A DNA stretch of 64,000 nt from Acidobacteriota bacterium. GTDB taxonomy: Bacteria > Acidobacteriota > Terriglobia > Acidiferrales > UBA7541. Under the pieces are notes generated by a model. It made no database searches. It was given only the letters and a program-made list of their open reading frames with translations, and was not told where the DNA came from. Location: contig PMTV01000025.1 in the NCBI GenBank assembly GCA_003167215.1, positions 2,609 through 66,608 of the forward strand, in the 5' to 3' direction. Made by a program: the position numbers and the translations under genes. The first letter of the stretch is position 1. Each line of letters opens with the position of its first letter. Positions 28,969-32,989 of this stretch are shown one piece after another.

Positions 28969-29253
28969 GATATTTTCGCCTCTTGAGACGCTTTCTATAC
29001 TTTGATGTCGAATTTGCACGTCTGCATTCCTGCCACATTTCCGCGGCACCCTCCCAGGCAAGGAGGTAATAGTTATTGTCCGCGACCGATTGGTTGGGTT
29101 ATGCTCCCTCGGCTGTTCCCCGGATTACACCGGGGCTTGGATCCAGCCCGTCTGACAAAATCAACCCCAACAAGAACGTCCGAACTCTCTCGGATGGCGT
29201 AGTAACAATTAGAAGCGGTTGCAGTCCAAACTCAATAGGAGGTAATTCGGGAA

Positions 29254-29541
29254 ATGACAAAATCGAAGAAAGCTCTAGTTGCTGGCGCCGCACTTGCAGG
29301 TCTCTTGGCTGGCACAGGCGCGACGATTCAAGCATCGAATCTTCTGTCCGGTGTGAGGCTTGCTGCTCAATCCGATCAGAAGCCCGCGGACAGCACGGCC
29401 AAGGAAAAGCATGCTTGCAAGGGTCAGAATTCTTGCAAGGGTAAGGGTGGATGTAAATCGAGCGACAACGGGTGTAAGGGCAAGAACTCTTGCAAGGGCA
29501 AGGGTGGTTGCGCAACAGACGGTTCAAAGATGCCGGACTAA
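29254..29541 (+). CDS. bufA: Bufferin-like RiPP precursor peptide
   Basis: 95 residues with a strong AGGAGGT ribosome binding site 10 bases upstream. The N-terminus (KSKKALVAGAALAGLLAGTGATIQASN) is a signal-peptide-like leader. After a short linker comes a low-complexity core with six Cys at residues 55, 61, 67, 74, 80 and 86, in two near-identical 19-residue units of type CKGxNSCKGKGGC. This composition and the directly following DUF692, DUF2063 and DoxX genes match the bufferin RiPPs, whose cysteines are oxidised by an MNIO enzyme (thiooxazole formation in Caulobacter) and which bind copper. Copper binding and the exact modification here are inferred. The leader is not clearly of the DUF2282 type. 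Confidence 0.82.
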   Translation: MTKSKKALVAGAALAGLLAGTGATIQASNLLSGVRLAAQSDQKPADSTAKEKHACKGQNSCKGKGGCKSSDNGCKGKNSCKGKGGCATDGSKMPD

Positions 29542-29557
29542 CGCTCTTCGGAGCGTT
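29540..29557 (+). other. UUCG-capped RNA hairpin between precursor and MNIO genes
   Basis: AACGCTC-TTCG-GAGCGTT: a 7-bp stem with the stable UUCG tetraloop, overlapping the bufA stop codon. No U-run follows, so it is not a simple terminator. It could protect the bufA mRNA or lower read-through so that precursor exceeds enzyme. Confidence 0.6.
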
Positions 29558-29640
29558 GGTACTAGCAAGAGTTGTCCTGCCTGGGGCCGGACTTCGTTGT
29601 ACCGGCCCTCGACACTTCTTCTGCATCTTCGGAGTCCCAA

Positions 29641-30492
29641 ATGCCGGCAAATCGGTTTAACAATTTTACTGATTATGGAATCGGGATTGGTCTGCGCGCG
29701 CCGCATTACCATCACATTCTCACGCGCAAACCGGTGGTTGACTGGTTTGAGATCATTTCCGAAAATTTCATGATCGATGGCGGGCGGCCTTTGCACATCC
29801 TCGATCAAATCCTGGAACAATACAAAGTGGTGCAGCACGGCGTTTCCATGTATTTCGGCTCGGCCGAGCGCCCGAACAAAGAACATCTTCGCCGCCTGAA
29901 GACCTTGGTGCAGCGTACCAAGACGCCCTGGCTATCGGACCATCTTTGCTGGGGAAGCGTCGATGGCCGCTACACGCACGATCTTCTGCCCATGCCCTAC
30001 ACTTTTGAAGCTGCGCGAATCACCGCGCAAAAAGTTCGCGAGGTCCGCGATTTTGTGGAAGTGCCCGTGGTGGTGGAGAACGTGAGCAGCTACGCGGAAT
30101 TTCACGTTTCCGAAATGACGGAGTGGGAATTCCTGAACGAAGTGGTCGAGCGAGCCGACTGCGGAATTCTCCTGGATGTGAACAACATTTACGTATCTTC
30201 GCGGAATCACAGCTTCGACCCGTACACCTACGTCAACAGCGTCCCGGCGGAGCGAGTCGCCCAGATCCACATCGCAGGTCATTCGAAATATAAAAAGTAC
30301 ATCCTGGATACACACGATCATCCCGTGATCGATCCCGTTTGGAAATTGTACGAGCGCGCCATCGAACGCGTCGGCCACACGGCAACTCTGCTCGAATGGG
30401 ACGACAGCATCCCTTCCTTTGACGAAGTTCACGACGAGGCTTTGAAAGCCAATCGATTCCTGGCAAGCGCATCGCTGGCGAAAGCGGTATGA
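29641..30492 (+). CDS. bufB: MNIO-family (DUF692) peptide-modifying iron oxidase
   Basis: 283 residues from the ATG at 29641, with GGAG six bases upstream. The start YGIGIGLRAPHYHHIL and the motif WFEIISENFM are typical of DUF692. Candidate metal ligands are H66 in QHGVSMYFG, D100-H101 in SDHLCWG, E146 in VVVENVSSY, D179/N181 in LLDVNNIYV, H210 and H214 in IHIAGH, and D223/H225 in DTHDHPV. This TIM-barrel family includes MbnB, TglH and bufferin-modifying enzymes, which use two or three iron ions and oxygen to change peptide cysteines. It lies between the Cys-rich precursor and a DUF2063 partner, whose start overlaps its stop (ATGA). Confidence 0.92.
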   Translation: MPANRFNNFTDYGIGIGLRAPHYHHILTRKPVVDWFEIISENFMIDGGRPLHILDQILEQYKVVQHGVSMYFGSAERPNKEHLRRLKTLVQRTKTPWLSDHLCWGSVDGRYTHDLLPMPYTFEAARITAQKVREVRDFVEVPVVVENVSSYAEFHVSEMTEWEFLNEVVERADCGILLDVNNIYVSSRNHSFDPYTYVNSVPAERVAQIHIAGHSKYKKYILDTHDHPVIDPVWKLYERAIERVGHTATLLEWDDSIPSFDEVHDEALKANRFLASASLAKAV

Positions 30493-31427
30493 AGCTGCTA
30501 AGCCTTCAACGCCGCATGGCTCGCGCGGTGATGACCCCGCTAACGCCTTCCGAACGCATGCGCCCGACCGCGCCCGATGGCCGCTCGATGCGCGCTGTAG
30601 CCTCTCAGATCATTAAGCCGAACTCTCGGCTGACGTCATTCGAACGCCTGGAAATCTATAATCGCCAGTATTGGTTCCGTGTGCTGGCAGGTCTTGCCGA
30701 GGATTTTCCTGGCTTGCGCGCCGTGCTCGGAGGAAATCGCTTCGATCGCATGGCGCAGGCCTATCTCACCGATTGCCCCTCGCAATCGTTTACTCTCCGC
30801 AACTTGGGTTCGCGCTTGGAATCCTGGCTGCGAAAAAAACCCGCCTGGACCGCCGGGCGCAGGAACCTGGCTCTCGATATGGTTCGCCTGGAATGGGCCG
30901 ATATTGAAGCCTTCGATGGCGGCGCCGAGCCCACGCTCAAACCGGAAGATCTCGCGTCAGCAAACCCCGCGAAACTGCGTTTGCGGCTGCAACCATATGT
31001 ACAGCTTCTCGACCTGCGTTATCCCGTTGACGACTTGTTGCTGGAAGTTCGCAAAGGGGACGATGACACCGAGGTCGCCAGCAATGCCTTCAGCGAGCGC
31101 CACCACCAGAAACGAGTTTCAGCCGTGGCGAAATTGAAACCCAGTCCGATCTTTTTGGTCGTGCATCGCATGGACGATTCCGTTTATTTTCGCCGGCTTC
31201 ATCGCGAGGAGTTCGCCATTCTGAGCGCTCTTCGCAGCGGCAAGCCGCTCAAGGCTGCGGTGGAAAGCGCTTTGAGAGCGAGCTCAATTCCTTCCGACGA
31301 ACGCGCAGCCAACGTGCAGCACTGGTTTCAAACCTGGGCGGTGCTCGGCTGGTTCTGCCGCTTCGACGGAAAAAAATCGAGACCGCATCGCTCGACAACA
31401 TCGCAGAAATCAAAAGCCCGAGCATGA
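30489..31427 (+). CDS. bufC: DUF2063 partner protein of the MNIO enzyme
   Basis: 312 residues. The first 110 residues carry the DUF2063 / putative DNA-binding domain features (ERLEIYNRQYWFRVLAGLAEDFPGLRAVLGGNRFDRMAQAYL). Despite that old domain name, MbnC/BufC-type proteins are the RiPP-recognition partners that present the precursor to the MNIO oxidase. The C-terminal part, with SPIFLVVHRMDDSVYFRRL, fits the longer members of the family. It overlaps bufB by four bases (ATGA) and the DoxX gene by four bases, so the three are translationally coupled. Confidence 0.87.
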   Translation: MKLLSLQRRMARAVMTPLTPSERMRPTAPDGRSMRAVASQIIKPNSRLTSFERLEIYNRQYWFRVLAGLAEDFPGLRAVLGGNRFDRMAQAYLTDCPSQSFTLRNLGSRLESWLRKKPAWTAGRRNLALDMVRLEWADIEAFDGGAEPTLKPEDLASANPAKLRLRLQPYVQLLDLRYPVDDLLLEVRKGDDDTEVASNAFSERHHQKRVSAVAKLKPSPIFLVVHRMDDSVYFRRLHREEFAILSALRSGKPLKAAVESALRASSIPSDERAANVQHWFQTWAVLGWFCRFDGKKSRPHRSTTSQKSKARA

Positions 31428-31936
31428 GAACTGAGGCGAATCCAATTCAGCGATTGTATGACGGCTTTGTAAGAGTCGTCTCCAGCCTCCAATCGCCATT
31501 TTTGCTGGCCATTCGTTTATATTGGGGATGGCAGCTCTCTCAAAATGGATGGGGTAAACTCCACAATCTGTCTCACGTCACGCAATTCTTCGTAAGCCTG
31601 GGACTGCCGGCACCGGCCTTCACCGCGACTTTTGTTTCGTCATTTGAATTTGTGGCCGGAATTCTGCTCGCCCTCGGCCTGCTGTCGCGAATCGCGGCTC
31701 TGGGCATCGTCATTGATATGTTCGTGGCGTATTGGGCGGGGGATAGGGCGTCGCTGCTTGCGTTCTTCTCGGATCCTGACAAGTTTTCCAACGCCGCCCC
31801 GTTTATCTTTCTGTTCGTGGGTCTGATCATTCTGATTTTCGGGCCGGGCAAACTATCCCTCGACACGCTCTTTGATCGGCTGATTCGGAAAAGAAAATAT
31901 TCAGAGTCCGGGGAGATCGGTTCCTCCGCTGTGTGA
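31424..31936 (+). CDS. DoxX-family membrane protein
   Basis: 170 residues, four predicted TM helices (PFLLAIRLYWGWQL, FEFVAGILLALGLLSRIAALGIVIDMFV, FIFLFVGLIILIFG and the region between). RLYWGWQLSQNGWGKL and the overall pattern match DoxX. DoxX genes are standard companions of bufferin operons (bufD). The redox or export role there is not established. Confidence 0.87.
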   Translation: MRTEANPIQRLYDGFVRVVSSLQSPFLLAIRLYWGWQLSQNGWGKLHNLSHVTQFFVSLGLPAPAFTATFVSSFEFVAGILLALGLLSRIAALGIVIDMFVAYWAGDRASLLAFFSDPDKFSNAAPFIFLFVGLIILIFGPGKLSLDTLFDRLIRKRKYSESGEIGSSAV

Positions 31937-31951
31937 CGGCCGCCGGATGAA

Positions 31952-32989
31952 ATGACGGCTGCCCGATTCATGAAACATCATGCGAACACGAATTCCAACA
32001 CGTGCCAGCGCGTAGTTCTTCTAGGCCTGTTCGTGTTCTTCTTGGTCGCCGCAGGCGCTTTTCCGGCTGACGACATGACCTCGACCATAGTTATCGGAAA
32101 TTCGCGAATAGATGTCGTCCTTGAGAAGGGCTCTCTTCAAGTCTCCAAGGAAGAACTGCTCAGGTGGGTTCAGTGGGCGGCGGAATCCGTAAGCGCCTAT
32201 TATGGCCATTTTCCAATCCCACATGTTTTGCTGCGCATTATTCCGGCTGATGGAAAAGGTGTTCGCAATGGCCGCACTTTTGGGGAAAAGGGCGGATTCA
32301 TAACCATTCACGTCGGCAGCAACACGACCTCCGAGGATCTCGGCACCGACTGGATGCTGACTCATGAAATGGTGCATCTCGCTTTTCCGTCCGTTGCCGA
32401 CAACCACCATTGGATTGAAGAGGGAATCGCAACTTATGTAGAGCCGATCGCGCGCGTAAGAGCGAAGCACATGGACGCGACGGAAATGTGGTTCGAACTG
32501 GTGAGAGACCTCCATCAGGGACTCCCCGCCGCTGGTGATAAAGGTCTCGACCACACGCATACCTGGGGACGAACGTATTGGGGCGGAGCGCTATTCTGTT
32601 TCCTCGCGGATATTGAGATCCATCAGAAAACGGCGAACCGAAAAGGTCTGGACGATGCGCTACGCGGCATTCTCGCTGCCGGCGGAGACATCCGGCAGGA
32701 CTGGCCCCTGGAAAAAGACTTGGATACTGGGGACCAAGCGACCGGCGTGCCGGTTTTGCGGCCACTTTATGAAAAGATGAAGGATCAACCCTACGACGTC
32801 GATCTCCCCGCGATATGGACGGAGTTGGGTGTCGAACGAGCCGACGGAAAAGTTCGCTTCCTGGATACTGCGCCGCTGTCGCAAACGCGTGTGGCAATCA
32901 CTTACGGCTCGGCTGGATCTGGATCGGCTGCCGCCTCGCCCATCAGCATACTTGCCGGCGACACGGCCATGAAGTTTCCGCAAAGGTAA
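31952..32989 (+). CDS. Exported gluzincin-type metallopeptidase (HExxH)
   Basis: 345 residues (339 if the second Met at 31970 is used). A signal peptide or anchor is present (VVLLGLFVFFLVAAGAFPA). The zinc site is MLTHEMVHLAF with a third ligand Glu in HHWIEEGIATYVEP, the order of M1-like gluzincins. YWGGALFCFLADIEI resembles the post-active-site helix of the same group. It begins 15 bp after the DoxX stop and so seems part of the RiPP operon. It could process the bufferin precursor or act on unrelated envelope proteins; there is no direct evidence for either. Confidence 0.75.
   Translation: MTAARFMKHHANTNSNTCQRVVLLGLFVFFLVAAGAFPADDMTSTIVIGNSRIDVVLEKGSLQVSKEELLRWVQWAAESVSAYYGHFPIPHVLLRIIPADGKGVRNGRTFGEKGGFITIHVGSNTTSEDLGTDWMLTHEMVHLAFPSVADNHHWIEEGIATYVEPIARVRAKHMDATEMWFELVRDLHQGLPAAGDKGLDHTHTWGRTYWGGALFCFLADIEIHQKTANRKGLDDALRGILAAGGDIRQDWPLEKDLDTGDQATGVPVLRPLYEKMKDQPYDVDLPAIWTELGVERADGKVRFLDTAPLSQTRVAITYGSAGSGSAAASPISILAGDTAMKFPQR

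Follow-up and report, generated by a model that had tools for sequence, protein, structure and literature searches.

The closest described relatives of the locus studied here are the bufferins of the second family, Buf2 (Buf_6/12Cys), whose peptides carry six Cys in 90% of cases and whose genes lie with genes for an MNIO, a DUF2063 protein and a DoxX protein (PMC12452194); a second group has named these peptides Cys-Lys captophorins (PMC13097082). Characterised bufferins bind copper (PMC12452194), and the characterised pairs of MNIO and DUF2063 proteins all make 5-thiooxazole (PMC13097082). At the place of FonB-Phe250, the MNIOs of the Lys-Cys group have Phe and those of the Cys-Lys group have Asp, which has been modelled as contacting the substrate Lys (PMC13097082). 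Thiooxazole metallophores rank among the largest classes of RiPPs, and published work has left it open whether these peptides, above all those of the EGKCG group, persist intact or undergo proteolytic cleavage (PMC13097082). Additional conserved genes were reported only in extremely low proportions in the main survey (PMC12452194), one related cluster is described as having no protease nearby (PMC12538549), and the published bufferin surveys, the founding PNAS 2024 paper and supplements aside, mention no peptidase in bufferin operons.

Here, we describe a Buf2 operon of a soil acidobacterium, which lies in a window of 64,000 nucleotides (the whole stretch of DNA analysed). The operon is a divergent Buf2 member, and with its linked gluzincin gene it is a variant absent from those surveys (again aside from the founding PNAS paper and supplements). 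This gene, for a predicted secreted metallopeptidase that has so far gone unnoticed, accompanies the Buf2 peptide system across several bacterial phyla, which raises the question of whether the bufferin has a protease dedicated to its cleavage or recycling.

The operon, its precursor and its putative maturation enzymes

The features of the operon, with the evidence for each, are as follows.

29237..29242, + strand: AGGAGG, strong ribosome-binding site in front of the precursor gene (sequence)
29254..29541, + strand: bufA2-like precursor gene, 95 aa (NF050166, below cut-off)
29583..29609, + strand: GC-rich hairpin in the precursor-MNIO gap (MFE z, covariation)
29641..30492, + strand: bufB, MNIO (DUF692) maturase (NF050167 and PF05114)
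30489..31427, + strand: bufC, DUF2063 partner (PF09836)
31424..31936, + strand: DoxX membrane protein (PF07681)
31952..32989, + strand: predicted secreted gluzincin, M1/M61 fold (AlphaFold2, Foldseek, linkage, co-occurrence)

The initial annotation had described a signal-bearing peptide, an MNIO, a DUF2063 protein and a DoxX protein in a row with a bufferin-operon layout, and all four open reading frames were found at these coordinates, the layout being borne out by a BufB profile above its cut-off and by the PF09836 and PF07681 matches. The 4-bp ATGA overlaps that it listed are real at the MNIO/DUF2063 (30489-30492) and DUF2063/DoxX (31424-31427) junctions, and the precursor and MNIO genes are 99 bp apart. 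Loss of the precursor from beside the MNIO gene in relatives had been named in advance as evidence against the operon; the precursor is kept there. The fifth co-directional gene lies outside the range first described, starts 16 bp past the DoxX stop and belongs with the operon. A search of the window's genome found one MNIO only and one such precursor only. The Rfam search of the operon gave no element, the sole match being an upstream tRNA-Gly, and a scan for consensus promoters and terminators gave no clear excess over shuffled sequences. When the upstream regions were aligned in search of a conserved operator, among those listed only the ribosome site was common to most; a GGAG-type site lies upstream of most homologous precursors.

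The precursor consists of an apparent Sec-type signal segment (about residues 1-27), an acidic/Lys spacer and the core HACKGQNSCKGKGGCKSSDNGCKGKNSCKGKGGCATDG. By eye, its N-terminus shows a Lys-rich start, a hydrophobic run and an IQA-S site, all conserved among homologues. Its Cys are at positions 55, 61, 67, 74, 80 and 86, and Lys follows five of the six. The six Cys are invariant and the core is kept nearly letter for letter in 20 homologues of the precursor family, and the number of Cys drops to five or four in more remote relatives (L073, L079, L085, L119, L138). NF050166 (BufA2) was the sole significant family (6e-11), and because the score of 42.4 bits is below the cut-off of 60 and the profile aligned only up to position 64 of 79, we call the precursor a divergent Buf2-type peptide rather than an equivalog member; judged from sequence, it is not a new class either. 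Shared with Buf2/BufA2 are, next to the apparent signal segment, the six Cys, the CKG units and the Cys 1-5 spacing (C-x5-C-x5-C-x6-C-x5-C, identical to that of the canonical peptide of L107, a Binataceae contig, 87.8 bits), followed by the MNIO, DUF2063 and DoxX genes. In contrast, Cys 6 lies 6 residues from Cys 5 in the window peptide (CKGKGGC) and 14 in L107, some relatives of this variant have only 4 or 5 Cys, and a peptidase gene is linked. Thus, the earlier suggestion of a possibly new product holds as far as a divergent form below the NF050166 cut-off is concerned but not as a new class, since the six-Cys Cys-Lys core is that of the published Buf2/BufA2. A group of precursors from Acidobacteriota and Verrucomicrobiota escapes the curated NF050166 model.

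Buf1 of Caulobacter vibrioides (DUF2282) shares maturation by an MNIO and a DUF2063 protein, export and an expected role in copper buffering, whereas its precursor is unrelated in sequence and has four Cys; sigma/anti-sigma genes are found in Buf1 operons and not in Buf2 operons (PMC12452194). Our precursor had no match to DUF2282 (PF10048) in Pfam up to E 1, so that Buf1 membership was rejected and the core is, as had been noted before, unlike the DUF2282 bufferin of Caulobacter. A conotoxin match in Pfam (E 0.66) was attributed to chance.

The MNIO scored 358.5 bits against PF05114 and 348.8 bits against NCBIfam BufB NF050167 (cut-off 310). The initial annotation credited it with all expected metal residues, and alignment with the solved relatives 3BWW, 8HCI and 7DZ9 agrees: the motifs QHG 65, SDH 99, VEN 145, LDVNN 178, HIAGH 210, DTHDH 223 and EWD 252 are all kept. 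The protein reads LLEWDD, with a second Asp right after that of EWD, as in all intact family members aligned; the equivalent of FonB-Phe250 was placed by the EWD motif rather than by an alignment to FonB. Since this Asp is the residue described at that place in Cys-Lys enzymes, and BufB is well above its cut-off, the new modification proposed initially is unlikely, and by analogy with the characterised pairs the expected modification of the core Cys is the usual 5-thiooxazole. The oxazolin/fontiphorin peptides (EGKCG, Lys-Cys group) share the type of enzyme pair and the expected 5-thiooxazole but have Lys before Cys, and their MNIO has Phe where that of the window has Asp (PMC13097082).

The DUF2063 protein scored 54.3 bits against PF09836 (cut-off 27.2) and 44 bits against HvfC, under the cut-off of 142; by its N-terminal domain the bufC product is of PME type 1, and a PDB sequence search with it gave no match. 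The DoxX protein scored 69.5 bits against PF07681 (cut-off 23.6) and 55 bits against HvfX, under the cut-off of 80. A comparison of the window's genome with the close genome of L026 gave identities of 100% for the MNIO, 95% for the DUF2063 protein and only 62% for the DoxX protein, which suggests that DoxX was swapped by gene replacement.

A hairpin between the precursor and MNIO genes

The precursor-MNIO gap has an MFE z of -2.15 and holds a hairpin found in 14 loci (the window and at least 13 relatives), in which base changes keep the pairing. There are 23 two-sided changes, and the covariation score was 0.39 compared to 0.24 in shuffles and was reached by 0 of 500 of them, a signal that may partly reflect relatedness and that comes from the same sequences in which the structure was read. 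Pairing was 81% in register and at most 60% once the hairpin was slid. In addition, several relatives have a T-rich stretch 3' of the hairpin. The natural reading is a leaky terminator or an mRNA end-protector that would favour the precursor over the enzymes, and we infer that the hairpin probably lowers enzyme expression relative to the precursor.

The predicted gluzincin and its association with bufferin genes

The fifth gene encodes 345 aa with an apparent signal segment (an alternative start is possible at 31970) and a zinc site made up of HEMVH at 138 and EEG at 156 (within WIEEG). A strict pattern of HExxH and the downstream Glu matches 106 of the 107 homologues, and HEMFH stands in the one that it misses. 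No Pfam family was above its cut-off, with PF05299 (M61) at 15.4 bits compared to 22, and a PDB sequence search gave no match. As judged from an AlphaFold2 model (pLDDT 80), whose best Foldseek matches are M61/M1 aminopeptidases (7XYO: E 1.7e-6, probability 1.00, TM 0.51), the product is predicted to be a secreted gluzincin of the M1/M61 fold. The aminopeptidases 7XYO, 4FGM and 1Z1W share the predicted fold and the HExxH...E zinc site, whereas identity to them is about 11-15% and the gluzincin has about 340 aa compared to 520-900 aa. In addition, the corresponding stretch of the sequence, GGFITIH, shows no Glu like that of GxMEN, the M1 exopeptidase motif; exopeptidase activity is therefore not to be assumed. 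Adjamnio-III (11 sequences) also has an HExxH protein beside the MNIO gene, but it comes from a set without signal peptide and with MNIO/nitroreductase fusions (PMC12452194), whereas the gluzincin of the window has an apparent signal segment and its operon is of the Buf2 type.

The gluzincin gene is adjacent to and co-directional with the operon in about 14 loci whose surroundings vary, and the block precursor-MNIO-DUF2063-DoxX-gluzincin is found in L028, L031, L034-L038 and L046, where the flanks differ from those of the window. Of the best 80 gluzincin matches in named genomes, 32 lie with a precursor, MNIO or DUF2063 gene within the flank retrieved and 48 do not. In most of the 32 linked loci, the gluzincin lies 3' of the operon; it is 5' of the precursor on the same strand in L110 and L119 (Granulicella mallensis), upstream too in L137 and L138 (from the phylum search), and divergent from the operon in L088, L098, L101 and L127. 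Among the named hosts are Acidobacteriota, Verrucomicrobiota and a Binataceae contig, with metagenome bins keeping their deposited names. In three verrucomicrobial loci (L070:8265-10028, L072, L074), a thioredoxin-fold DUF255 protein (DsbH-like, WCHWCH) is encoded between DoxX and the gluzincin. Operons without a nearby gluzincin also occur (L030, L032, L033, L045); those of L030 and L033 are second copies, and they share downstream genes for an NDH-2 type NADH dehydrogenase and a membrane protein.

At the order level, the gluzincin was found in 18 of 95 genomes, and a close BufB was present in 17 of these 18 compared to 21 of the 95 overall (p 4e-14); the exception, G005, has a contig on which DUF2063 and DoxX genes precede the gluzincin (L058). 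Across 396 Acidobacteriota genomes, the gluzincin occurs in 27, and a BufB-type MNIO was present in 27/27 compared to 108/396 overall (hypergeometric 4e-17) and a BufB above cut-off in 26 compared to 61/396 (hypergeometric 8e-23), p-values that, like that at the order level, ignore the relatedness of the genomes. Even where gluzincin copies are distant or unlinked, a BufB-type MNIO was present in 46 of 49 genomes from several phyla, above cut-off in 39. The gluzincin is absent from 35 of the 61 Acidobacteriota genomes with an above-cut-off BufB, and so many BufB genomes without it mark it as accessory rather than essential.

The unlinked gluzincin genes share no neighbours beyond lineage synteny, with msrB in four or five cases. 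This gene (methionine sulfoxide reductase B, named by eye) adjoins the gluzincin in several Acidobacteriaceae (L106, L113, L114, L121). In the complete genome CP085323 (L095, L135), a bufferin-type DoxX gene adjoins the gluzincin, and the BufB gene is located far away.

Model, alternatives and metal function

We assign a probability of roughly 0.6 to the reading that this is a five-gene operon of the Buf2 bufferin (captophorin) type, which makes a periplasmic copper-buffering peptide along with a dedicated peptidase for its trimming or recycling. The reading builds on the observed gene content, family membership, core conservation and hairpin, and on the linkage and co-occurrence of the peptidase. 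The precursor would be produced in excess over the enzymes by way of the hairpin 3' of its gene. BufB (MNIO) and BufC (DUF2063) would turn core Cys of the CKG units into 5-thiooxazoles in the cytosol, and the putative Sec signal would export the peptide so that excess copper is bound in the periplasm, as published relatives lead us to expect for both the modification and the function. DoxX would be a membrane partner in this system. For the secreted gluzincin, we infer an action on the exported peptide, by which the spacer would be trimmed or the peptide cut and recycled. That the mature thiooxazole peptide has a secreted gluzincin dedicated to its processing or recycling in Acidobacteriota, Verrucomicrobiota and some other phyla is a broader proposal that we advance tentatively. 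If true, bufferin would be no static metal sponge but would be cut into smaller metallophores or cleared once metal-loaded. With a peptidase family that goes along with Buf2 operons in many lineages, the cut-or-whole question becomes directly testable.

It is also conceivable, if somewhat unlikely, that the operon is an ordinary Buf2 operon and the gluzincin a mere frequent neighbour, a general periplasmic protease or stress-response chaperone that does not act on the peptide. The many gluzincin copies far from an operon and the many BufB genomes without one favour this explanation, and the few genes beside msrB fit a wider role in envelope stress; against it, the linkage recurs in at least three arrangements and the co-occurrence with BufB is near-perfect across phyla. 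That the locus represents a novel RiPP class, in which the CKGxNSCKGKGGC units would carry a novel Cys modification, we regard as very improbable. The sub-cut-off BufA2 score and the shifted last Cys point that way, but the spacing of Cys 1-5 is canonical for Buf2, BufB scores well above its cut-off, the Asp specificity residue is that of Cys-Lys enzymes, and the characterised MNIO and DUF2063 pairs make 5-thiooxazole without exception (PMC13097082).

Either view of the peptidase would fit a peptide that serves another metal (e.g. Hg, Zn or Au) or oxidative stress instead of copper, an explanation that we consider improbable. Mercury operons with MerC-Buf fusions have been published, as has a gold/copper response (PMC12452194, PMC8692599), no copper regulator was found in the operon of the window, and no copper gene was identified beside it; copper binding by the characterised bufferins (PMC12452194) and the surroundings of one homologue argue the other way. 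This homologue (L040:80-5075), a second precursor in one relative, lies near a contig start with a DoxX gene of its own and no MNIO beside it, and downstream lie genes for a CN-hydrolase, a multicopper oxidase and an outer-membrane efflux protein. The oxidase resembles CopA-type copper resistance oxidases (with a score below cut-off), and this neighbourhood supports a copper role.
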